This document shows positions 2 through 22,654 of a stretch of DNA of 23,999 nt, one piece after another. The notes beneath the pieces were generated by a model, which was not told the origin of the DNA, made no database searches, and saw nothing but the letters and a program-made list of their open reading frames with translations. Origin of the DNA: a virus. Position numbers and translations under genes: made by a program. Position 1 is the first letter of the stretch; each line of letters opens with the position of its first letter. The stretch covers positions 1 to 23,999 of IMG/VR virus record IMGVR_UViG_3300006920_000247; one strand, 5' to 3'.

Positions 2-100
2 ATCACTTGGCTGGCGCGGAACGTGCCTGAGGGTATGACCATCAACGAGTTTTTAGCGACGGCCCTGCTGGATGACGCAATGGCGGAGGACGAGGAATGA
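2..100 (+). CDS. Partial unknown protein (C-terminal 32 residues)
   Basis: The gene runs in from the left edge and is open in one frame up to a TGA at 98-100. Visible residues include NVPEGMTINEFLATALL and an acidic end (DDAMAEDEE). The stop overlaps the next start as ATGA, the usual sign of translational coupling in a phage operon, which supports this short open stretch being coding. The 'TINEFLATALL' segment could be the second helix of a small DNA-binding fold such as ribbon-helix-helix, but too little is visible to assign a function. Confidence 0.6.
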   Translation: MTWLARNVPEGMTINEFLATALLDDAMAEDEE

Positions 101-339
101 GCGCTCAATCATTGCCAGAGCGTATGCTCTGGGCCAGCGTATTGGAGTCAGCCGTTCGCGACGCCCTGCGGGACAAGCCAACAGATGAGCCTGGCTCTAA
201 ACGTAACAGCGTGCAGTGGCGGCAGGACAGGGCCTATATCAGAACCTCAGCGTTTTCTGAGATATGCCTGCTGGCTGGCGTAGACCCGCAGTACGCGCGC
301 GACCGCATTCTCAACAAAATGGCGTCAATCGAGGGCTAG
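97..339 (+). CDS. Hypothetical 80-residue phage protein
   Basis: An 80-residue soluble protein with no signal peptide or membrane segment. The ATG overlaps the upstream stop (ATGA) and is preceded by a purine-rich GGAGGACGAGG Shine-Dalgarno region, which fixes the start. The charged first half (KPTDEPGSKR) is followed by a more structured second half (SAFSEICLLAGVDPQYARDRI) that resembles a small helical domain. I do not recognise the family. It lies at the head of the recombination block, about 45 bases before the ribbon-helix-helix gene, and is probably co-transcribed with it. It ends in TAG, which matters for judging the amber codon at 4234. Confidence 0.7.
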   Translation: MSAQSLPERMLWASVLESAVRDALRDKPTDEPGSKRNSVQWRQDRAYIRTSAFSEICLLAGVDPQYARDRILNKMASIEG

Positions 340-3042: not shown

Positions 3043-4233
3043 CTACTGGACGCCTGCCTGAGACAGCAAGCCTCGCAGCGTTGCTGACGGTACATCCACT
3101 CTAGGCCCGCGCAGTGCGGGCGCTCCAGTCGTCAGCGCCCTTTGCCCCATGTCAGATCTGTAAAACGCTTTCTTGAGCTGGCCAGGGACTGTAGCCCCAG
3201 CGAGTGCCAACATTGCCGCAGGCAAGCCTCCGCCTATCGTCGCGGCTGCGGTCCCGGCAGAGGCGTATGTAGGCGCTCCCTCTCTAGTAAAGAACCTAGC
3301 GCGCAAACTGCGGTCTTGCTCTGGGATATCCCGCAGAATCGTTTTCCCAGCCGTTTGCAGTAAGCCCTCTGGCGAATCTGCTCGCGGCGCGTCTGCCAGA
3401 GCGTTTGGATCGACAAAATCCTCTGGGCTTCTAGCTTTCTTCATCCTTACGAATGAATTGTATTTTCTCATGCTCTCGACATAGTCGTCGGCCAGATCCG
3501 CGCGCCCAGCGCTTCTGGCAGCACTTGCCAGCGTCTCAGTGATGGCGCTTAACGCTAGGCGCTTCGCCTCATAAGCGCTTTGGTTTGCCCTCGGCACGTC
3601 AAGCTCTGACAACTCCCTGCTTATGTCCCGCAGGATCATTGCTGGGGATGACCCGGCAGCAGGAGACAAGACCGCAGCTCTAGCGTCCTCAATTGAGTTC
3701 AGGATAGATTTCTGAGTGCCAGACATGCCACTGGCTCGAATGTTTTGCGAAACTATGCTTGCCGCGTCTAAAAGTTTCCCCTGACTCAAGTCATTGGGCG
3801 ATACTGCGACGCTTCTTATCTCGTTGAATGGCTTGGCGATGCGAGTTTCTATGCGGTCCATCACTTCATTGGTCAGACCAGCATTTCTGATATTTTCGAC
3901 TTCATCAGGGGTGGCGCCGGACTGCTTCGCTACAGCCGCAGAAAACTGTTTACGGGCTTCTGGCGAGACTTTTTCTGTACCTGCGGCGCGGCGCACCTTT
4001 TCTGCCCCTGCGACTACCTCGCGAGGAACCTCTACGCCCTCCATGCTCAGCACCCGCGCAAGCTCTTCTCTTTGGCTGCTTACAGGCAATGGTCTGTCGA
4101 AAATTGTCCGGCCCGCAGCCGAAAGACCCATTGGCGTAACTATCGCACCGACTGCCCGGCCTACATCTTCGTTTAAGCCCAATGCTCCAGATAAGCCTCC
4201 GACTGTCTCCGTACCTGCTGCTGGTGCAGCCAC
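3043..4233 (-). CDS. Internal virion/ejection-type protein, C-terminal part beyond an amber codon
   Basis: 396 residues that begin directly after a TAG and are in the same frame as the preceding 168-residue stretch. The only start codon at this position is a GTG abutting that TAG, with no recognisable Shine-Dalgarno upstream, so independent translation looks poor. It reads best as the C-terminal part of one 565-codon gene. The sequence is mostly helical and Ala-rich, with a charged middle (VSPEARKQFSAAVAKQSG, then RIETRIAKPFNEIRSVAV). A Gly/Ala amphipathic segment (GTAAATIGGGLPAAMLALAG) lies near the C terminus. This fits podoviral internal proteins that are ejected with DNA. It is the last gene of the late cluster and its stop nearly meets that of the convergent terminase small subunit. 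Confidence 0.7.
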   Translation of the reverse strand: MAAPAAGTETVGGLSGALGLNEDVGRAVGAIVTPMGLSAAGRTIFDRPLPVSSQREELARVLSMEGVEVPREVVAGAEKVRRAAGTEKVSPEARKQFSAAVAKQSGATPDEVENIRNAGLTNEVMDRIETRIAKPFNEIRSVAVSPNDLSQGKLLDAASIVSQNIRASGMSGTQKSILNSIEDARAAVLSPAAGSSPAMILRDISRELSELDVPRANQSAYEAKRLALSAITETLASAARSAGRADLADDYVESMRKYNSFVRMKKARSPEDFVDPNALADAPRADSPEGLLQTAGKTILRDIPEQDRSLRARFFTREGAPTYASAGTAAATIGGGLPAAMLALAGATVPGQLKKAFYRSDMGQRALTTGAPALRGPRVDVPSATLRGLLSQAGVQ

Positions 4234-4236
4234 CTA
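4234..4236 (-). other. In-frame amber (TAG) codon interrupting the internal virion gene
   Basis: Read on the minus strand the codons are GCT TCT TAG GTG GCT GCA. The same frame stays open for 168 codons upstream and 396 downstream. The flanking protein reads smoothly across the stop (LVRRFAS, stop, VAAPAAGTETVGG). A single C-to-T change from CAG (Gln) would create it. Other genes here end in TAG (for example at 339, 1752 and 3038), so genome-wide reassignment of TAG is unlikely. Candidate explanations are a nonsense mutation, host amber suppression, readthrough or a sequencing error. Confidence 0.8.
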
Positions 4237-4740
4237 AGAAGCAAATCTGCGCACCAAGCCGCCTGGGCCAGAGGCTACGCCTGGGAGAAAGTTGCCAACA
4301 GTCCTAGCGCCGCTGCCTAAGGTAGTGGTTGGCTGGATCATTTCTGGGTCCAAACCTACAGCGTCAAGCGCTGCTTGGCCGGGCTTTATGTACTCTCTAG
4401 GTGTCACCGTTTGGCGGATTTGTTCTGCCGTTTCGTTTGCGCCTACAAAGTCCAATACGCTTGCGGCAGCGTTCTGCACTAAGCCGGGGTTGAGCATTGG
4501 AGACTGCAGCTGCATAATTAAATCACTCGCCTCCACTGCGGCGTCGGCCAAGCCAGTAACGCCCTCAGCAGCACCGACGCCAACTTGTGTTGCTACATCT
4601 TCAACGACAGATTTTTGGCTTTTAGCAGCCTTAATCTCTGCGATTCTTTCCCGCATCTCGGCGTTAGACGTGCCCTCCGGGAAGAATTCGACGTCGTCGC
4701 CTTGATCTGTCTTGAATTCAATCTTGATTAAACCGCTCAT
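4234..4740 (-). CDS. Internal virion/ejection-type protein, N-terminal part ending at the amber codon
   Basis: 168 residues. The first 35 form a small beta/helix module (IKIEFKTDQGDDVEFFPEG, then SNAEMRERIAEIKAAK). This kind of 'xxPxGTSxxEhxxxI' module is commonly found at the start of large phage internal virion proteins. A Gly/Ala-rich amphipathic stretch follows (VGVGAAEGVTGLADAAVEAS). The last visible segment (GNFLPGVASGPGGLVRRFAS) continues naturally into the next in-frame open stretch, so this is very probably the front of a 565-codon protein cut by a TAG. The ATG has AGGAA upstream and lies 3 bases after the previous stop. If no readthrough occurs, a truncated 168-residue protein is made. 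Confidence 0.75.
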   Translation of the reverse strand: MSGLIKIEFKTDQGDDVEFFPEGTSNAEMRERIAEIKAAKSQKSVVEDVATQVGVGAAEGVTGLADAAVEASDLIMQLQSPMLNPGLVQNAAASVLDFVGANETAEQIRQTVTPREYIKPGQAALDAVGLDPEMIQPTTTLGSGARTVGNFLPGVASGPGGLVRRFAS

Positions 4741-4743
4741 GAG

Positions 4744-6705
4744 TCATGTTCCTGGCGTCTGAGGTTGCGCGTCGGGCTGATTTAATTGGTCTTCAGTCAT
4801 GGTTCTGACTACATTTTCTTCCGCCTCTTCTCCCCCCATTAGTGCTAGAGCCTTGTCAAACTGTTCCGGATTGAATTCTATCCCCTTAATCAAAGACTCA
4901 CGCTGACGCCTTGCAGCGGGGGACTCCTCAGGCTTGCCGCTCATAATTCTGTCGATTGAGCGGTAGTAGTGCCTGATGACGTCTTTAATGTTTTTCTTGA
5001 CCGCCTCTTCGCTCATACTGGAGTCTAGGGCCTTAATTGAGTTTTGAAGAGCTATAAGCTCAATGATTGCAACCTGCCCCAAACTTGTTTTCGCTTCTTT
5101 AAGCTCCATAAGTTGCTGAAAGCCAATGTTTGCTTTGATTGTATTCATATTTTTTACTAGTTCCCCAGCTGAAGTAAAGCCAATCCATCCCAACGCTTGA
5201 GCATAGCCCCCCGTAGAATAATCTTCGTCAGCTTTTTTATAGACATCAACCAAGTTGTTCAGTTGGCGCGTTGAATCGTAAACTATTTTGTCTAACTTAG
5301 CTGTCTCATCGCGAAGCAATGCTTGCCGCGTTTGGTTCTGTAAGATGTATTCTTTGCCCCCGTCAAAGCCCATGTTGTCCGTTATAGTTTCAAAAGATGT
5401 GTTCAAGTCTTCAATTGTCGCGTATTGGGCTTCCCCAGACCCAAAACTTGCAGCTATTGCGTTTTTGTTATCTTCAAAATTAAGCGGCACATATTCTTGA
5501 TCGCCATTAGGCGTTTCGCCAACGCGTTTTGGCTGAACGGTGCCCTGCAACACTTCTTGGAAGTTAGCCTGCAATGGCAAAAGAGTTTGCGGCGGGATGT
5601 ACTGCTCATAAGCTCTTGCTGCGTTAATCAGCGATTGCTGGCGGGTGCTGCCCGGCGCTTGCATCATCGCCTGCCGCATGTTTTTGACATAGTTCTGAAT
5701 TGCCATACGCTGGTTAGACGGCGTGCCGTAGTTTGGCTGAGACGCCTCAGTGATTGATTTCTGCGTCTCGCCAAAGAAGTTAGTGGCCTTACCCTCAAGA
5801 GCGTTGCCTGCGTCCTTTAGAGCAGCAACGCCGAGCATAACCCGCTGCTGGCGGCTTAGCGGGCTTTCGCTGTCAAGAATACCGCCCTTGAACAGGTTTG
5901 AGAAAAAGCTATCGCCATCTTGTGCGGGAGCTGCGGCAGCAGGTGCAGCTACGCTCATCAGCGCCTTGGGCACAGGGCCACCAGACGCGCCATCATTAGG
6001 CGTAAGTCCGAGGCGTCGAGTTACTTCACTCGCTATGTTCGCAGAGCCTGGCGCGGCAAGCTGAGCGCCAGCAGCCGCAGGGCGCATCTGCTCCGCGCCT
6101 GCCCCCGGAATAGGAACTGTAGCTCTCTGGCCAATGTCGCTTGGTCCTGCAATCTTAAACGACTGCGCGCCAATGTCGATTGTGCCGGGGATGTTCTTCC
6201 CAAAGTTTTCGTATGCCTCAAGCTGCTCGTCGCGCGTCTGTGGCACGATCACCCTTGCTGGGGCCGCAGGCTGCGCAGGCGCAGCTTCCGGGCTTACTAG
6301 CGGCACCGAGTCTGGGTATGGCACCGGCTCGACGTTTTTAGTCTTTGTAATCGGTGGCAGCCTGTCGTTGCCTGCCGCTACGGCTGGCTCTGCGGGCTGG
6401 TCTTCAAACGCAACTTCTGGCCCACCCAACATACCGACCCGGAACGGGCTTGGTGCGACTTGACGCCCGACGCCGGGAGGTGGCGCGTTTGTACGCACAG
6501 TGGCAGGTTGATATGCTGGGCCTGTCCCCGTTGTGCCCTCGCCCACAGTGCGCATTCCTCCCCCAAGCAGTCTGGGGTCGCGAGGCATAGTGGAGGTCTG
6601 GCCAACACGGCCACCGCGCGGGACATTTTTCGCAACTTGCTTCCCGCCAAGAGCCAAAATACGAAGAATCCCAGCGATAGCAGCAGGTATAACAGGTGCA
6701 GGCAT
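4744..6705 (-). CDS. Large internal virion or ejection protein
   Basis: 653 residues. The N terminus is hydrophobic (PAPVIPAAIAGILRILALGG) and is followed by roughly 250 residues of Pro/Ala/Gly-rich, probably flexible sequence. The C-terminal half is helical and charged (for example LLRDETAKLDKIVYDSTRQL, and IELIALQNSIKALDSSMSEE). This pattern of a low-complexity N half and a helical C half is seen in internal virion proteins encoded late in podoviral operons, near the lysozyme-like ejection protein, as here. No enzymatic motif was found. The neighbouring genes on both sides are ejection-type candidates. The function is inferred from context, length and composition; the family is not recognised. 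Confidence 0.65.
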   Translation of the reverse strand: MPAPVIPAAIAGILRILALGGKQVAKNVPRGGRVGQTSTMPRDPRLLGGGMRTVGEGTTGTGPAYQPATVRTNAPPPGVGRQVAPSPFRVGMLGGPEVAFEDQPAEPAVAAGNDRLPPITKTKNVEPVPYPDSVPLVSPEAAPAQPAAPARVIVPQTRDEQLEAYENFGKNIPGTIDIGAQSFKIAGPSDIGQRATVPIPGAGAEQMRPAAAGAQLAAPGSANIASEVTRRLGLTPNDGASGGPVPKALMSVAAPAAAAPAQDGDSFFSNLFKGGILDSESPLSRQQRVMLGVAALKDAGNALEGKATNFFGETQKSITEASQPNYGTPSNQRMAIQNYVKNMRQAMMQAPGSTRQQSLINAARAYEQYIPPQTLLPLQANFQEVLQGTVQPKRVGETPNGDQEYVPLNFEDNKNAIAASFGSGEAQYATIEDLNTSFETITDNMGFDGGKEYILQNQTRQALLRDETAKLDKIVYDSTRQLNNLVDVYKKADEDYSTGGYAQALGWIGFTSAGELVKNMNTIKANIGFQQLMELKEAKTSLGQVAIIELIALQNSIKALDSSMSEEAVKKNIKDVIRHYYRSIDRIMSGKPEESPAARRQRESLIKGIEFNPEQFDKALALMGGEEAEENVVRTMTEDQLNQPDAQPQTPGT

Positions 6706-6716
6706 TTCAAAATCTC

Positions 6717-7589
6717 CTATCGTTTGCGCGCTTGCAGATCGCGAAGCAGCATTCCTGCCCGCGCCTGCTGAAGCGGCGACTGACGGCCGCTCAGCGCTAA
6801 CATCATTCGTTCTGCCAAAGACGCCTGATCTGGCATTGGCATTTGCGTTGGCATTGGGGCTGCGGTGCGAGCCTTGGTAATGCGCACTTTAGGCGCGCCT
6901 AATTCGGCCAAAGAGGTGCCCTCAGGCGCGACGCCACCGCCCAAAATGGCCATCGCGGGGCTACCCGCTGGTGACATTGCTGGCGGCGGCGCGGCAGCAG
7001 GCTCTGCGCCTGCCATGGCCAGCATTCCTGTCAGGTCCTCGACCTGCAACGCAGGATCTGCGATAGGCGCTTCTGATATGTTGAGCAGGCCAGTTGGCAC
7101 ATCTCCCGGCCTTGGCATAGGCATGGGGGACTGATCAGGGGCAGCGGGATCTTCGATCTGACGCGAGATTGTTTTGAATTTATTGTAGTAGTTGCTTAGA
7201 GATGTTTTCTCTTCGTCTTGAGGATTGTATCCGCCGCGCGTTTTAACATAACTACGCATTCCGTTTACACCGCCAAGATGTGCAACAGCCCTTAGGCCAT
7301 CGCGATCAAAACCCTCAGCCTTTTCACCCAGCTCGTCGATAGCCCTATCAATGTCTCTTACTTGCCACTCCATAACGCGCTCCTGCAATTCAGGATCGCC
7401 AATGAACTCTTCCATCGTGAACTGTTCTTTGTTGGCTCTTTTGTAGTCCGCAAGGCGGTCCTTGCCAAATTGGTACTTTCCTACAAATCGCCTTTTTCTT
7501 TTGTCGTTGTTTTGCCGCTGCGCAGAGTAATTGTTGCTGGACTCGCTCTTGCCCATTGCGTCCATAAAGTCTGCTATACTAAGTGCCAT
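6717..7589 (-). CDS. Virion-associated lysozyme/transglycosylase-like protein
   Basis: 290 residues. The N-terminal 130 look like a lysozyme-fold muramidase: GKSESSNNYSAQ with a likely catalytic Glu16, then FVGKYQFGKDRLADYK (about residues 35-50), and later AVAHLGGVNGMRSYVKTRGG. The E-S-S-x-N-Y and G-(K/R)-Y-Q-F-G pair is characteristic of phage transglycosylase domains. The remaining 160 residues are Pro/Met/Ala-rich and probably disordered, ending in a basic segment (RDLQARKR). Such proteins are carried in the particle and open the peptidoglycan locally so DNA can enter. Its ATG shares one base with the upstream stop (TAATG at 7589). It is distinct from the endolysin at 12334. Confidence 0.78.
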   Translation of the reverse strand: MALSIADFMDAMGKSESSNNYSAQRQNNDKRKRRFVGKYQFGKDRLADYKRANKEQFTMEEFIGDPELQERVMEWQVRDIDRAIDELGEKAEGFDRDGLRAVAHLGGVNGMRSYVKTRGGYNPQDEEKTSLSNYYNKFKTISRQIEDPAAPDQSPMPMPRPGDVPTGLLNISEAPIADPALQVEDLTGMLAMAGAEPAAAPPPAMSPAGSPAMAILGGGVAPEGTSLAELGAPKVRITKARTAAPMPTQMPMPDQASLAERMMLALSGRQSPLQQARAGMLLRDLQARKR

Positions 7590-8566
7590 TACGCTGACTC
7601 CATCTGCTCACGGTGCAGGCCGTCGTAGTTAACTCGCAAGTAACCATCTTGGCCAGCAACAACCAAGTGCGGATGAGTGTTCGCAAGTTCGTGCGCCATG
7701 ACGCCAGATGTTGGGTGGCTGTCCACGCCAATGCGCTTGGCCTCGTCATTCCACGTCCAGCGATAGTAGTTAACGCCTTTGTGATTGCCCGTGCTCTCAA
7801 TGTTTGACTTGAGGCGAACGTCTGAGGCTCCGAACAAAGCCCCCGCAAGGCTGGCACCGCTAGACAAGTAGCTGCCAAAGCCAGGGCGAGAGGTTTGCGT
7901 TGCTGTACCAAGGCCGCCCGGAATGGTGCCCGCAGCCGCAGGCAAGACGCCGAACGCCTGCATGGGGTAGTTGGTTCTGCGAAGAAACTCTTCAACCTGA
8001 GCGTCGAGTACAAGCTGATCTTGCAGGGTTCCGACCTGACCAAGGCCGGTTAGACCCGTAGCGGCCTGACCCGCCAGTGCTTGCTCAGAAGCAATTTGCT
8101 GCTGTGTCAGACCCATGGCGCGGTTGAGATCCTGCTGCCGAATGTCCTCTACCATCCGTTCGCGAGCAATGTTTTCAGCGGCTGCCTGCTCCGCCTCCAC
8201 AAGCCCTCGGCGTTCGTTGCCGAAAGCACCGCTGCGAACCAAGTCAGCCTCCTGCTGGGTTCGGGCGATATCAAACTGCCGCTGCTGAGCAGCTAGGTAT
8301 GGGTCACTGGTCATCCCTAGGTTCGCCAGATTGGCTTCTAGCCGCGTTCCAAATTCTTCAGGGCTATAAGCGTCCTCGTCCCGGAAATCTCGGTAGATTT
8401 CAGCCGCTTCACCATATTCAGGGCTAAGCTCTGCAACGCGATTACCCTCGTATGGAGTAAACGGAGTCGCAAAAATATCTTTGGCAGCCGGGATGACTGT
8501 TTCTTCAAGAAACTTCTGCTGAAACTCAGGGAGTTCTGTTTCAGTTTTCTGCTTGGATGCGCCCAT
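7589..8566 (-). CDS. Virion structural protein with a C-terminal S74-like chaperone domain
   Basis: 325 residues. The first 180 are helical and Gln/Glu-rich (for example PEFQQKFLEETVIPAAKDIF and AAQQRQFDIARTQQEADLVR). A Gly/Ala/Ser-rich linker follows (SGASLAGALFGA). The C terminus holds SDVRLK with Ser248 and Lys253, then WTWNDEAKRIGVD, GVMAHELANTHPHLV and YLRVNYDGL. That is the core of an intramolecular chaperone S74 domain, which folds as a trimer and cuts itself off at the Ser of the SD-x-RLK motif. Here the domain is short (about 78 residues). The gene lies among internal protein genes rather than with the main fibre, so it may be an ejection, neck or small spike protein. The S74-like call is fairly firm; the body's role is not. 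Confidence 0.72.
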   Translation of the reverse strand: MGASKQKTETELPEFQQKFLEETVIPAAKDIFATPFTPYEGNRVAELSPEYGEAAEIYRDFRDEDAYSPEEFGTRLEANLANLGMTSDPYLAAQQRQFDIARTQQEADLVRSGAFGNERRGLVEAEQAAAENIARERMVEDIRQQDLNRAMGLTQQQIASEQALAGQAATGLTGLGQVGTLQDQLVLDAQVEEFLRRTNYPMQAFGVLPAAAGTIPGGLGTATQTSRPGFGSYLSSGASLAGALFGASDVRLKSNIESTGNHKGVNYYRWTWNDEAKRIGVDSHPTSGVMAHELANTHPHLVVAGQDGYLRVNYDGLHREQMESA

Positions 8567-14157: not shown

Positions 14158-16926
14158 CTACTCCAGAGCGGCAACGCGCTGCTCTAGTTCTTCGATACGA
14201 CCAAGTGCTTCCTGCAGTGCGCCCACAGCTTTTAAGTACAGCAACGAGTAGTTGACCGACCGGTATCCGTCCTCGTCGATATCAACCAAGCCCGGCGAAA
14301 TCTGCTCTAAGTCCTGCGCAATTACACCTAGATGACGCGGGCCTTTTAGCCCTGCTTGTTCTGAGACGTTCAATGCCTTATCAGCGGCGACTTCTGCCGT
14401 GATCAGGTTGTAGTTCTTAAGCGAGAGCGCTTTCACGTCATCCCACTGAGACGCCGCGTCTGATATGTCTTCTTTCAGCCTAGCGTCCGACAGGGCACCA
14501 TAGCTGTTGTTGGTGTTTCTAACGTCGCCGTCCGCGTCAATGCGGAAGTTCGCGGTTTCCGTGCCGCCTACGTCAGACGTGCCTCTAAATAAAAAATGTG
14601 TGCTGGTTGTGGTAGCACGATATACGTCTACCGTAGTGGCTGGCGACACAATAGTACCAACCTCCAATACCCCAGCAATATCAACATTGCCTGTGTCTCT
14701 CACAGTGATGCCAGTAGTACCCGCAACATTTAGCAACAGCTTAGGGTCGCTGCCCTCAGCGTTTATGTCAGCGCTGATCACTAGATTTCCGACGCCAGAA
14801 TTAGCGTCAATCTCATGATCTACCCCTGTGGTTGTGTCCGTCATTCTGATGTAGGGGTCCGCTGCGGCCATAGTTACAGCGCCCGTGACATCAACGCCGC
14901 TGCTTGAGGTGTTCAGCTTCTCTGCGCCGTAGTAGAAAAGCTGGGCTTCACCAGAAGAACCGTCGGCCTTGAAGTAAGTTGCTGTTCCGCCTGAGCCGTC
15001 ATCACATTGGATGTTGACGTCTCGGTCGTCTGCGAGGTTACGGATAAGCAGGTCATTAGTACTGTTACGGATGTCGCCGTTGCTACCGTTATGCTCTAGG
15101 ATCAAATCGTTGCTATCACCAAAACGCAGTTCACCGTTGTCGGGGAGATCAACGTGGGCACCAACATCCAGACTACCATAGACGTCCATGTTACCGCTGC
15201 CGCTGTACAATGCCCAAAGTTCCGTACCTACGCCGCCTATAGCGCCATCCACTGTAATTCGTGATGACCCGCCGGAATCATATTTATACCGGTGCTGGAG
15301 GCCATAAGTGCCAGCGTTAGTAGGCGCCCCGGTGTAACTTGTAGTGGCCGCAATCATGTACGGTGCATTTTGGTTAGCAGCGTAGGTGACAACTTTCGCT
15401 ATGATCTTGTCACTGGTTGCCAAATTGCCCGTAATATCAACGCCGGAGCTTTTGGTGTTGAGTTTTTCTGAGCCGTAATAGTACAGCTTAGCTTCGCCAC
15501 TAGAGCCGTCAGCAGCGAAGTAATTTGCAATACCGCCAGAGCCGTCGTCGGACTGGATATAGACGTCTTTATCGTTTGCAGTATTAGTTAAGTAGAGGTT
15601 ATTGGTATTGTTGGCAATTATCCCGTTGGTGGCGTTATGTTTAATGGTCAGATCATCGCTATCACCTAAACGCAGCTCTACGTTGTCAGGCAGCGATAAG
15701 TTATGCCCAGCTAATACCTCTACATTTCCGTCAAGCTGGATTTGATCTCCGTTCGAGCCACCACTCATAATGCGTGATTGGATCACGCCAGCCGCGTTAC
15801 AAAACTCAATGCGGTTGTTTTGAGTGTCTCCTGTAGGCTGGAGGCGGACCTGTGGGGTAGACGCCTTAATGTGAAGTTCAGCGCCGGGGCTAGTTTGACC
15901 AATGCCAACATAATTATCATCTGAGATTGTGACTACATCTGTCCCAGCAATGGCAAAGCGCATCTCAGCGTTGCCGCCTGTCCCCTCGGCATTAAACTGG
16001 AAACCGATGTTGTTTACGCCGCCAACCGCAAACTCGTTAATCTGAAGCGCTCGGTCATAAACAGTACGGTTGCCTCCGAACTTAGCCAAAAGTCCATTTG
16101 ACGCGCCTACCACGTTTAGCCCGTCAGCGGCTCCTCCTGTTAAGGCTTCAGCAGTCCCAAGTGTGGCGTTGCCGCTAGTTGCCAGATCACCAGTTACATC
16201 TACACCAGCGCTTTTGGTGTTGAGTTTTTCTGAGCCGTAATAATACATCTTGGCTTCACCAGCAGAGCCATCCGCAGCGAAGTAATTTGTAGTGCCGCCT
16301 GACCCGTCATCAGACTGGATCGAAACGTCACGGTCGTCCGCGAAGTTGCGTATGGACATGTGACCAGTAGCACTACGGATGTCGGTAAGCGCTCCGGTAT
16401 GCTCAATGATCAGGTCGTTGCTATCACCTAAACGCAGTTCATCGTTGTCACCTAGGGAAACATGCGAAGTAGAAGTTAGCCCAGCAAAAGTAGGGCTATC
16501 GGTTGTAGCAACGCCCTGGTTAAGAGCCTTAACAGAGGCTTCGCTGGTCAGCTCACTGTCCATAACAGCGCCAGCAGCAGTGACGTTTGCTGTATCTGTT
16601 ACATCAGCGCCTGCTTCTATGCCGTCCAGCTTGTTAAAAGCAGACGCATGGGCACCCAAGAAAACTACCGCAGACCCACTCAAGTTCAAAAGCGAGCCAG
16701 TGCTGCTTTCGACAAGAGTACGAGAAAGAGTAGTCCCAGACGCTGTGTAAGTGCCCGTGCCTATTTCAAACGCATTGTTGTCCTCAATGACGTACTCAAC
16801 GGCTTGACCGTTTGTAACTCCGCCGTCTGCAAACGTCTGATGCCCATTAGTTGCGGTGCCAAGCGTAATGGTGCCGGTGCCGGTAGTAGACGTTAAGACT
16901 TTAACTCTGTTTGCATAGACGGTCAT
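14158..16926 (-). CDS. Tail fibre with internal repeats and C-terminal S74 chaperone domain
   Basis: 922 residues. The N terminus ([20 protein letters not shown]) is a common marine phage fibre start and is followed by a beta-rich shaft. The unit [60 protein letters not shown] occurs three times (about residues 158-248, 411-502 and 593-683). The C terminus from Ser813 ([11 protein letters not shown], with Lys818) to the coiled-coil end ([13 protein letters not shown]) is an S74 intramolecular chaperone. It trimerises, then self-cleaves next to Ser813, leaving the mature fibre. It is the best candidate for the main receptor-binding protein. Start: ATG at 16926, 8 bases from the previous gene. 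Confidence 0.88.
14878..15150 (-). repeat. Fibre shaft repeat copy 3
   Basis: Third copy of the unit, encoding [19 protein letters not shown] through [10 protein letters not shown]. It has [20 protein letters not shown] where the other copies have YFAADG and YYYGSEK. Confidence 0.75.
15421..15695 (-). repeat. Fibre shaft repeat copy 2
   Basis: Second copy of the fibre shaft unit, encoding [16 protein letters not shown] through [10 protein letters not shown]. It is closest in sequence to copy 1. Confidence 0.75.
16183..16455 (-). repeat. Fibre shaft repeat copy 1
   Basis: First of three roughly 270-bp repeats within the tail fibre gene, encoding [14 protein letters not shown] through [10 protein letters not shown]. 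It shares long near-identical blocks with copy 2, for example the region encoding [12 protein letters not shown]. Confidence 0.75.
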
Positions 16927-18291: not shown

Positions 18292-19254
18292 TTACGAGGT
18301 GGTCAGGTCAGCAACGATGCCATGAGCGGCTTCATTTTTAACCATCAAGCCAGACTCGCAGATCGCCATACGCTTCTCTGCGTCACCAGTTTTGGCCAGA
18401 TCAACCATCTGGATTGGACGCAGAACGCCAACAGCCACATACTCAGGATCGATGACGTAGGCGTCGCGAGAGCGCGAGAAGCGGTTCGCAACAATCGACA
18501 TTTCGCCAAAGTCAGACAGGTAAATGTCAGCCGCACCAATGATCGTAGTAGGGCCATCGCCTGGAGCCATGTAACGCTGAGCTGCGATACCGGCAAACCC
18601 CGATACTGCCTGCTTGTTAAACGATCCGACCATAACCATGGTGGGGTCGCCGCCAGCATTCCAGACTTTCTGGACAACGTCTTTCAACATTGCTTCAGTG
18701 AACGCACGCTGTGTGCCGTCCGTACGAGCGTCAGTGCCGTCGCCGGTTGGGTCAGCAGGCGAACCTGCGGTGGCTTTGTTGGTGTTGGTTGCAATCCAAG
18801 CCGACAGAGAAGCAGTTTCTGGAGCCGTCGTCGAGTTGCCAGTCACTTTGGCGTTGTTAACGCCGCAGAGCATGGTTTCAACGTCGCGCTTCAGCTCTTT
18901 GCCTTTCTTGGCAGCCTGATAAGCAACTTCCGAGTCACGGCCAGCTTTATCAACGAAGTCCAAGTTGTCTTCGATGACCATTGTCTGGCGCAGAATCTGC
19001 GTGACGTTGATCAGTCGAGTCGTTGCCGTAGTGGCATCGAAACTTGCAACATCATCACCAGAAATGCGGGCAGTCGCGCTTGCTGCGGCAAGCGAGTCTG
19101 TCTGCCACTCAAAGGTGGTGTTAGTTACATCAACGGTGCCAATGTTCGACTGAAAAGGCGTTTCTTCAGGCGAAATGTTTGCGATTACGTCCGCGAGATC
19201 TTCGCGGATGCCCTTTGCAGTGTAGTGCAAGAACGTATTTGCTACGATGGCCAT
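18292..19254 (-). CDS. Major capsid protein, DUF5309/SU10-type
   Basis: 320 residues. The N-terminal half matches the DUF5309 (SU10 major capsid) pattern: LADVIANISPEETPFQSNIG, then FEWQTDSLAAASATARISGD, LINVTQILRQTMVIEDNLDF, and KKGKELKRDVETMLCG. The C-terminal half includes MVMVGSFNKQAVSGFAGIAA, and later AYVIDPEYVAVGVLRPIQMV, consistent with the HK97-fold P and A domains. It is preceded by a scaffold gene, as expected for the coat protein, which polymerises around that scaffold. It ends in TAA and is followed by a hairpin. It has an ATG with AGGAG upstream. Confidence 0.85.
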   Translation of the reverse strand: MAIVANTFLHYTAKGIREDLADVIANISPEETPFQSNIGTVDVTNTTFEWQTDSLAAASATARISGDDVASFDATTATTRLINVTQILRQTMVIEDNLDFVDKAGRDSEVAYQAAKKGKELKRDVETMLCGVNNAKVTGNSTTAPETASLSAWIATNTNKATAGSPADPTGDGTDARTDGTQRAFTEAMLKDVVQKVWNAGGDPTMVMVGSFNKQAVSGFAGIAAQRYMAPGDGPTTIIGAADIYLSDFGEMSIVANRFSRSRDAYVIDPEYVAVGVLRPIQMVDLAKTGDAEKRMAICESGLMVKNEAAHGIVADLTTS

Positions 19255-20286: not shown

Positions 20287-20535
20287 CTATTTTTTGCGCT
20301 TTTCTACAAGTTGCGCGCGATCAACCCGCGCACGGAGCGCGGCCTGCAACATCTCTACCCCAGCGCACGCAGCATGTGACTGCTGCAATGCCTCAATGTC
20401 TGTCATCTTGGTCGAGCGAAAATCAATAAAGCAAGCAGCCTGTATTTCGCTTAATGCTGACTGAATGTCTTCGTCGTCAAGAATAATCTTGGCCTTGCGA
20501 CCCTCGTCCAAAATCTGTTGGTCAGACTTCTTCAT
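20287..20535 (-). CDS. Small helical protein between portal and scaffold
   Basis: 82 residues, helical and charged (SDQQILDEGRKAKIILDDED, TKMTDIEALQQSHAACAGVE, LQAALRARVDRAQLVEKRKK). It overlaps the 3' end of the portal gene by 14 bases. It contains two Cys and no membrane segment. I do not recognise the family. Small genes at this location are common between portal and scaffold genes in podovirus-like phages, so it may assist procapsid assembly. Confidence 0.65.
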   Translation of the reverse strand: MKKSDQQILDEGRKAKIILDDEDIQSALSEIQAACFIDFRSTKMTDIEALQQSHAACAGVEMLQAALRARVDRAQLVEKRKK

Positions 20536-22654
20536 CCCGTACAGCTTCCTTGATTAGCTCAGACTGTGCTTTCATGCTTTCACGGCTTATTGCAGTGGAC
20601 TTTTTAATGTCCTCAACCCGCAACTGAGTGCCGTATTTTGCTCGAAGCTCCTCAGCAGTAACGTAAAGATCCATTTCCATCTGGTCGCGCTTCAGATCAT
20701 CTTCCATCTGCATCTGCTCGCGCTTCAATGCAAGCTCGGCAGCTTTTTTCTGGATATCAGCCTGAATTTGCTGGATTTGCACATCAATTAACTGCTCGTT
20801 AATATCAGGCTCATCCTGCTGCGGAGACGGACGGAAGTTAACAGGATCGCTCCAGAACTTGCTCACGTCCTTAAACCCTGCCAACTGGGTCATTTCAGCC
20901 AACGTGTTGTAAAGTTTATCCATGCTGGTCAGCGGGTTTTGTGCGCCCATCGTAGACATGGCTTCTTTCTGCATTTCGCCAATCTGGCGCAACATCATCA
21001 TGCGCTCAGTGTCAGACCCACGGCCCAGAGCCACATTGATAGAAACGTCCATAGTAGAGTCCCAGTAGCGCGGATCAATAGGCACATAGTCGTTGTTAAG
21101 GCGGACAATTCGCTCACGCTGCTGGTGCTGGCAAACTAACTTCAGCAAACCTCGCATTAAGTCGCGCATACCAGTCTCAGCAAAAATACGCGCGATCATC
21201 TCAATCTGTTGCTGAGCCGCTGAAACAGTTGCCGCAACAGCAGATGCTGTAGATGACTGCAATGCGTTTGCGTCCAAGCCATTCGCGGCCCTAGAAATGC
21301 CTGTGCGGCTTTCCTTGGTGCTGTCTAGATACTGAAGAACGGGGAACGCCTGCTGCCCCACAAAGGGCATAGAAATAGGCTGTACCTGCCCCGGAGAGCG
21401 CTGCCTGATGATGGCGCCGGTTTCGGTGTTCATCACATCCTCGATGCTCACCTGGCCCTCTGTGACGGCTATGCGAGGGTGTATGGACATGGCCAAACTG
21501 TCGAGAGTGTTGCGCATCACAACTGACTTAATGCGCTGGATGTCCATCACGATGTCGGCCATTGACGTGCCAAAAAACTCATGAGCCTCTGGGTCAGGGC
21601 AGAAGCTGGCAAACGGGCGCATATCGCAGGGGTTGTCCGCTAGGATTTCATGCCCACTACCCGCAACGCAAACCTTGCGCAGCTCCGCAATGCCGTCACC
21701 GTCTCGGTCTACCTTAATGTAAACTTCAGCGTAGCTAACTAACCGCTGGCTAGGGTCAGATGACGTATGATAGTCATCTGTGCGGGCTGGGTTTCGGGCG
21801 TAACGCTCAGGGTTCCAGTCCAGCTCGTCAGAGTTTGACGCTAGGCGCTCGACCTGATCTTTTTCGTAGCCCATCGCAACAAGATCGCTAACAGTCAGAA
21901 TGCGTCGGTGCGCCACCATCGTAGCGTCATCAATGTTTTTAGCCCGACGATCAATCAGGAACTCTTCTGGCGGAACTGCCTCAACGCGGATCTTGCCGTC
22001 CATTACCATGCGGGTAATTTCAACATCATGCAGCATTGGTGGCTGCAACCCAGCAGCCTCGATTGCCATTGCCTGCTCTACACTCATTTCAGCAGATGTG
22101 GAGCGAATAGCCTGAATCGAAACACTGTCATCTGAATACAAAGCAGCCAGAGCGTTATCGTCTAAACCCGTTAACTCAGATGCGCTGACTTCAACGCTCT
22201 CATCCCAGACAAATTTAATAATCCCAACCTTGCGGATCAAAGCGTCCTTGAATGCATCGTGCAACGCAAGAAAGCCCTTGTTGTCCTGGTTAAACACGTA
22301 GTTAACGTAATCTGTCGCTTGCTTTGCGGAGGCTACGTCTTCTGCGTGACGCGGCATAAACTCAACAGCGCGCTCAGACCCCGTAAAAATACGCAGCAAT
22401 GACGGCATAACGGCCTGGACAGTGTCACGCACGTCCATGCTGACAACCTGAGATCTGCCCTCTTCTTCATCGCCGTATGGCTCGCCGTTGTAGTATTTTG
22501 TGGCCAGAGCGCGGCTAGGGCTGATGTAGTTGTCAATGTAATCTTCAGCATCGTCCAGCTCACTGCCAACAATGCCCTGCAACTTGTCTTCTGACATATA
22601 ATCATCAGAAGCGTTGACGATAGCGCCGGTTTCTTCTTCTTGGTAAGTGGCCAT
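20522..22654 (-). CDS. Portal protein
   Basis: 710 residues. The N-terminal half has the portal pattern: MSEDKLQGIVGSELDDAEDY, RSQVVSMDVRDTVQAVMPSL, then VEFMPRHAEDVASAKQATDY, and later DEEEGRSQVVS. The middle holds HEFFGTSMADIVMDIQRIKS (the classic 'YG-x-S-x-x-x-h-x-x-x-Q' portal motif), plus VQPISMPFVGQQAFPVLQYL and GISRAANGLDANALQSSTAS. The C terminus is a long coiled coil (EQLIDVQIQQIQADIQKKAA). The 12-mer forms the packaging and ejection channel at one head vertex. Its size is similar to P22's 725. It ends in TGA, with a small gene overlapping. Confidence 0.85.
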   Translation of the reverse strand: MATYQEEETGAIVNASDDYMSEDKLQGIVGSELDDAEDYIDNYISPSRALATKYYNGEPYGDEEEGRSQVVSMDVRDTVQAVMPSLLRIFTGSERAVEFMPRHAEDVASAKQATDYVNYVFNQDNKGFLALHDAFKDALIRKVGIIKFVWDESVEVSASELTGLDDNALAALYSDDSVSIQAIRSTSAEMSVEQAMAIEAAGLQPPMLHDVEITRMVMDGKIRVEAVPPEEFLIDRRAKNIDDATMVAHRRILTVSDLVAMGYEKDQVERLASNSDELDWNPERYARNPARTDDYHTSSDPSQRLVSYAEVYIKVDRDGDGIAELRKVCVAGSGHEILADNPCDMRPFASFCPDPEAHEFFGTSMADIVMDIQRIKSVVMRNTLDSLAMSIHPRIAVTEGQVSIEDVMNTETGAIIRQRSPGQVQPISMPFVGQQAFPVLQYLDSTKESRTGISRAANGLDANALQSSTASAVAATVSAAQQQIEMIARIFAETGMRDLMRGLLKLVCQHQQRERIVRLNNDYVPIDPRYWDSTMDVSINVALGRGSDTERMMMLRQIGEMQKEAMSTMGAQNPLTSMDKLYNTLAEMTQLAGFKDVSKFWSDPVNFRPSPQQDEPDINEQLIDVQIQQIQADIQKKAAELALKREQMQMEDDLKRDQMEMDLYVTAEELRAKYGTQLRVEDIKKSTAISRESMKAQSELIKEAVRDEEV

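Follow-up and report, generated by a model that had tools for sequence, protein, structure and literature searches.

In the 23,999-base IMG/VR virus record analysed here (IMGVR_UViG_3300006920_000247, hereafter the window), a gene of 565 codons is in all likelihood broken by a nonsense change private to this record, which is either a real loss-of-function allele or an error in a consensus base. The interruption, an in-frame TAG at codon 169, is thus an ordinary broken copy or sequence error and no new way of making proteins. We propose that the intact gene would give one protein of 565 aa, probably the last packaged ejection-type cargo of an SU10-like podovirus, and that a single C-to-T transition would have turned Gln-169 (CAG) into a TAG that is unconserved. 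If the TAG is real, translation would end after 168 residues, within a segment conserved in the family, and the truncated protein would most likely be non-functional.

The interrupted gene and its near-identical relatives

Two open reading frames of 168 and 396 codons lie in one frame of the minus strand, parted by TAG and then GTG, and the coordinates given for them in the original prediction are confirmed (Table 1). Both parts are coding, since the downstream part stayed open in none of 2,000 base shuffles and GC3 is alike on either side of the TAG (0.54 and 0.55). The gene's own terminal codon, at the 3043 end, is also TAG. The absence of a Shine-Dalgarno sequence in front of the downstream part, likewise predicted, holds as well: the anti-SD duplex of the GTG scores +0.3 kcal/mol, the weakest among the 28 starts scored, and that of the gene's own ATG -4.3 kcal/mol.

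Table 1. Coordinates of the interrupted gene, its parts and other virion genes in the window
Feature	Position	Strand	Remarks
Gene of 565 codons and a stop, probably for the last ejection-type cargo protein	3043..4740	-	Open throughout in L002 and L003; most of its length is homologous to a family of 552-576 aa
In-frame TAG, codon 169	4234..4236	-	CAG (Gln) in L002 and L003
Upstream part, 168 codons	4237..4740	-	ATG start; ORF including the TAG is 4740-4234
Downstream part, 396 codons	3043..4233	-	GTG start abutting the TAG, without Shine-Dalgarno
653-aa neighbour	4744..6705	-	C-terminus resembles phrog_24864 and gp19 of Octadecabacter Antarctic DB virus 2; in distant relatives, comparable stretches stand immediately upstream of the homologue
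290-aa lysozyme/endolysin-like protein	6717..7589	-	phrog_26675
325-aa protein like phrog_4287 'DNA ejection protein'	7589..8566	-	C-terminal S74-like stretch
Major capsid protein	18292..19254	-	SU10_MCP (PF17236)
Portal protein	20522..22654	-	SU10_portal (PF23899)

Searching viral contigs for the joined protein returned two near-identical relatives (100% identity in the best segment), L002 (IMGVR_UViG_3300025508_000661; 99.95% DNA identity with the window over 7,620 bp) and L003 (IMGVR_UViG_3300006029_000209; 99.48% over 8,057 bp). Both read TCT CAG GTG where the window has TCT TAG GTG, and in both the gene is open and encodes 565 aa, identical to the window's protein except at codon 169. An intact allele one base away is what a nonsense allele should show, and the change predicted from the window alone, a single C-to-T from a glutamine codon, is borne out by both records. 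When viral contigs were scanned with the degenerate pattern TTTGCTTCTYAGGTGGCTGC, which accepts either allele, the only matches were again L002 and L003, both with C. Over the 7,620 bp shared with L002 the window differs by four substitutions, of which three are synonymous, none is missense and one is the TAG; one of the silent differences also sits in the interrupted gene. At each of these four sites L002 and L003 agree, which leaves their independence in doubt; they may be one genotype or related samples, and the comparison would then effectively be one of one genotype against another.

The two relatives also differ from the window, at window positions 83-101 (L002 7603-8400), by the presence of a C5-cytosine methyltransferase gene (265 aa, PF00145, E 4.6e-42). 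It is encoded in a segment of 794 bp that the window lacks there and that is flanked in L002 and L003 by two 19-bp direct repeats, the gene being missing exactly between the repeat copies, which lie at gene ends. This absence may be a real deletion between the repeats or an assembly collapse; a junction-specific scan, from which the window's own record may be omitted, found the deletion junction in no other viral contig. It is a matter of speculation that a lineage with this methyltransferase could in principle favour C-to-T changes. At the other end of the L003 alignment (L003 1-310, window 7826-8137), near-identity extends to about position 7826 and is followed by sharp divergence inside the 325-aa gene, with the differences clustered past this point until the alignment stops at 8137. 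This pattern has the look of a recombination boundary within a gene of the virion.

Continuity of the protein family across the stop codon

The lead to a distant family came from an HHalign comparison with 345 long ORFs of other loci, in which a 563-aa ORF of L092 stood out; an ORF of L021 scored slightly above it, but its match was short and the gene adjoins the portal. Scanning with the L092 protein returned 17 loci, 15 of them with a complete gene (552-576 aa as matched). This distant family (L106-L120), found in viral contigs and unnamed, shares about 24% identity with the joined protein, and all 15 complete homologues are open across the site without any internal stop. The family profile aligns with residues 30-311 of the joined protein at an HHalign score of 39.8; none of 40 shuffles scored above 22.5, and the reversed sequence reached 18.6. 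Residues 136-364 were also aligned to L119 and L115 by an independent tblastn (with E-values relative to the 17 loci only). In a nine-sequence alignment A167, P173, A174, E178, T179 and G181 are invariant, all of them at most 12 residues from codon 169. Moreover, in most of these loci the upstream genes resemble the 653-aa and 325-aa genes of the window, so that gene position matches too: the family members occupy the same slot and are homologous through most of their length, but they are never interrupted. Other searches gave no relative: the joined protein had no tblastn match in phage and plasmid records, an 83-aa stretch spanning the site had none in phages at E up to 1, and genome contigs yielded nothing when scanned for the joined protein.

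Because the alignment runs through the site, the TAG lies inside one conserved protein and not at a gene boundary. The protein had been predicted to read continuously across the stop, and the 15 complete distant homologues agree, each being a single uninterrupted gene; none encodes two proteins with a boundary here. It follows from the homologues that a two-gene arrangement, in which the 396-codon part would be translated separately after reinitiation, either at the GTG next to the stop or at a later start, is largely refuted, and we regard it as highly improbable. The GTG does abut the TAG directly, and GGAGG precedes a TTG at codon 187, where weak internal initiation could occur; against this stand the poor score of the GTG and the single protein encoded by the relatives, with the site in a conserved segment.

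The same comparison bears on functional readthrough or host amber suppression, which would yield products of 168 and 565 aa. The intact downstream part, the equal GC3 and the kept frame are compatible with it, but an intact downstream part is expected after any recent stop. Conservation of the stop, the mark of programmed readthrough, is not observed, with CAG in L002 and L003 and no stop in the 15 complete distant homologues. Since the TAG is absent from near and distant relatives alike, it is no conserved readthrough signal, and nothing points to programmed readthrough. A strong suppressor would furthermore lengthen the genes that end in TAG, which are 11 of the 30 called in the window. A tRNA search, following the suggestion that a suppressor be sought, found no tRNA in the 24-kb window or in the eight near-relative loci, from a genome that may be incomplete. 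We thus consider readthrough or suppression very unlikely.

The use of TAG by so many called genes also weighs against a code-15-like phage that reads TAG as glutamine, in which TAG should be avoided as terminator; no such avoidance is seen. The sense allele at the site happens to be glutamine, and TAG-to-Gln recoding is known in crAss-like phages (PMC9523058). Phages of this type (PMC9523058, PMC10607447) likewise have TAG where a glutamine codon is expected. Unlike them, the window has one such site, with no other in-frame TAG interrupting a gene and no other stop difference with respect to L002, L005, L006 and L090; it still terminates many genes with TAG, and no suppressor tRNA was found in it or in the near-relative records. 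Recoding and a phage-borne suppressor are therefore both unsupported, in line with the original view that whole-genome recoding is unlikely, and we attach almost no probability to recoding. A literature search on nonsense or readthrough in metagenomic phages returned nothing directly relevant.

Nonsense allele or consensus error

The original prediction had left four alternatives, and said that each would matter in an essential gene. Two of them stand, a real nonsense mutation and an error of sequencing or consensus; no positive evidence was found for either readthrough or suppression. The statement on the importance of each was overstated, because only one record has the stop. Between the two that stand we give roughly equal odds, which is a judgement with no computation behind it.

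That the TAG is a sequencing or consensus error in the contig, absent from the phage population, has a little less than an even chance. It is a single unsupported base, in a stretch of 7.6 kb with zero missense differences from L002, and both other records that cover the site carry C. On the other side, the accuracy of the contig was checked against L002, L005, L006 and L090, which together span most of the window, and no other stop and no frameshift was found inside the called genes. Silent differences outnumber missense ones (16 and 0 for L005, which has two further non-coding differences, 3 and 2 for L090, and 14 and 9 for L006), so the contig appears broadly accurate, while one stray base could still have entered it. 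Moreover, a random substitution in the window's genes creates a stop in only 3.4% of cases, which gives no particular reason to expect this very change from one stray error. With respect to L006, six of the nine missense differences fall in the major capsid gene, several of them clustered at 18827-18836.

The other reading, to which we give nearly half of the probability, is a real nonsense allele present in part of the phage population, which would be recent and deleterious or tolerated through coinfecting intact phages that supply the protein. The change is a transition in a contig that otherwise appears accurate, and the window represents a genotype of its own, having three further silent alleles that are private to it and the precise 794-bp absence relative to L002 and L003. 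However, podoviruses are described as needing their ejection proteins for infectivity (PMC8954989), and a stop allele would accordingly be expected to remain rare; also, consensus assembly normally gives the majority base. A further step, in which a real TAG allele would be kept in part of the population by amber-suppressor hosts or by coinfecting intact phages and would thus act as a conditional ejection-protein allele, seems to us very improbable.

Probable role of the protein and meaning of the interruption

The interrupted gene is the last of a cluster with the phrog_4287-like and lysozyme-like genes, in a phage whose capsid and portal match the SU10 type. From this gene order and position, the 565-aa protein is probably the last ejection-type cargo protein of an SU10-like podovirus module. 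The description as an internal virion gene is accordingly sustained as to its placement in an ejection cluster, and its role would follow from position. SU10 has a head and ejection module (gp20-24), likewise packages several ejection proteins and releases five types of them (PMC9509320). The window shares the SU10_MCP and SU10_portal matches, but its 565-aa protein has no sequence match to any named ejection protein, and no hit in PHROGs or Pfam passed the threshold. Its AlphaFold model (mean pLDDT 44.5) is too poor to place residue 169. In Octadecabacter Antarctic DB virus 2 (MW805364.1), gp18-gp20 are an S74-containing protein, a cell wall hydrolase resembling the 653-aa neighbour and a 503-aa protein in the slot of the 565-aa gene; BLASTP of this gp20 against the 565-aa protein found no significant pairwise similarity. 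In the window, the S74 chaperone-like stretch at the C-terminus of the 325-aa protein is a sub-threshold Pfam match, and the end segment of a 922-aa fibre gene (14158-16926) looks similar to it.

The orphan 565-aa protein is now connected with an unnamed protein family whose members are probably ejection proteins. Beyond this, the meaning of the finding is mainly one of caution: when a gene is interrupted in one metagenomic phage record, this need not indicate readthrough or recoding, and near-identical records offer a cheap comparison that settles such cases. While nothing here demands it, a TAG allele that was both real and common would point to natural cheating or suppression in phage populations.
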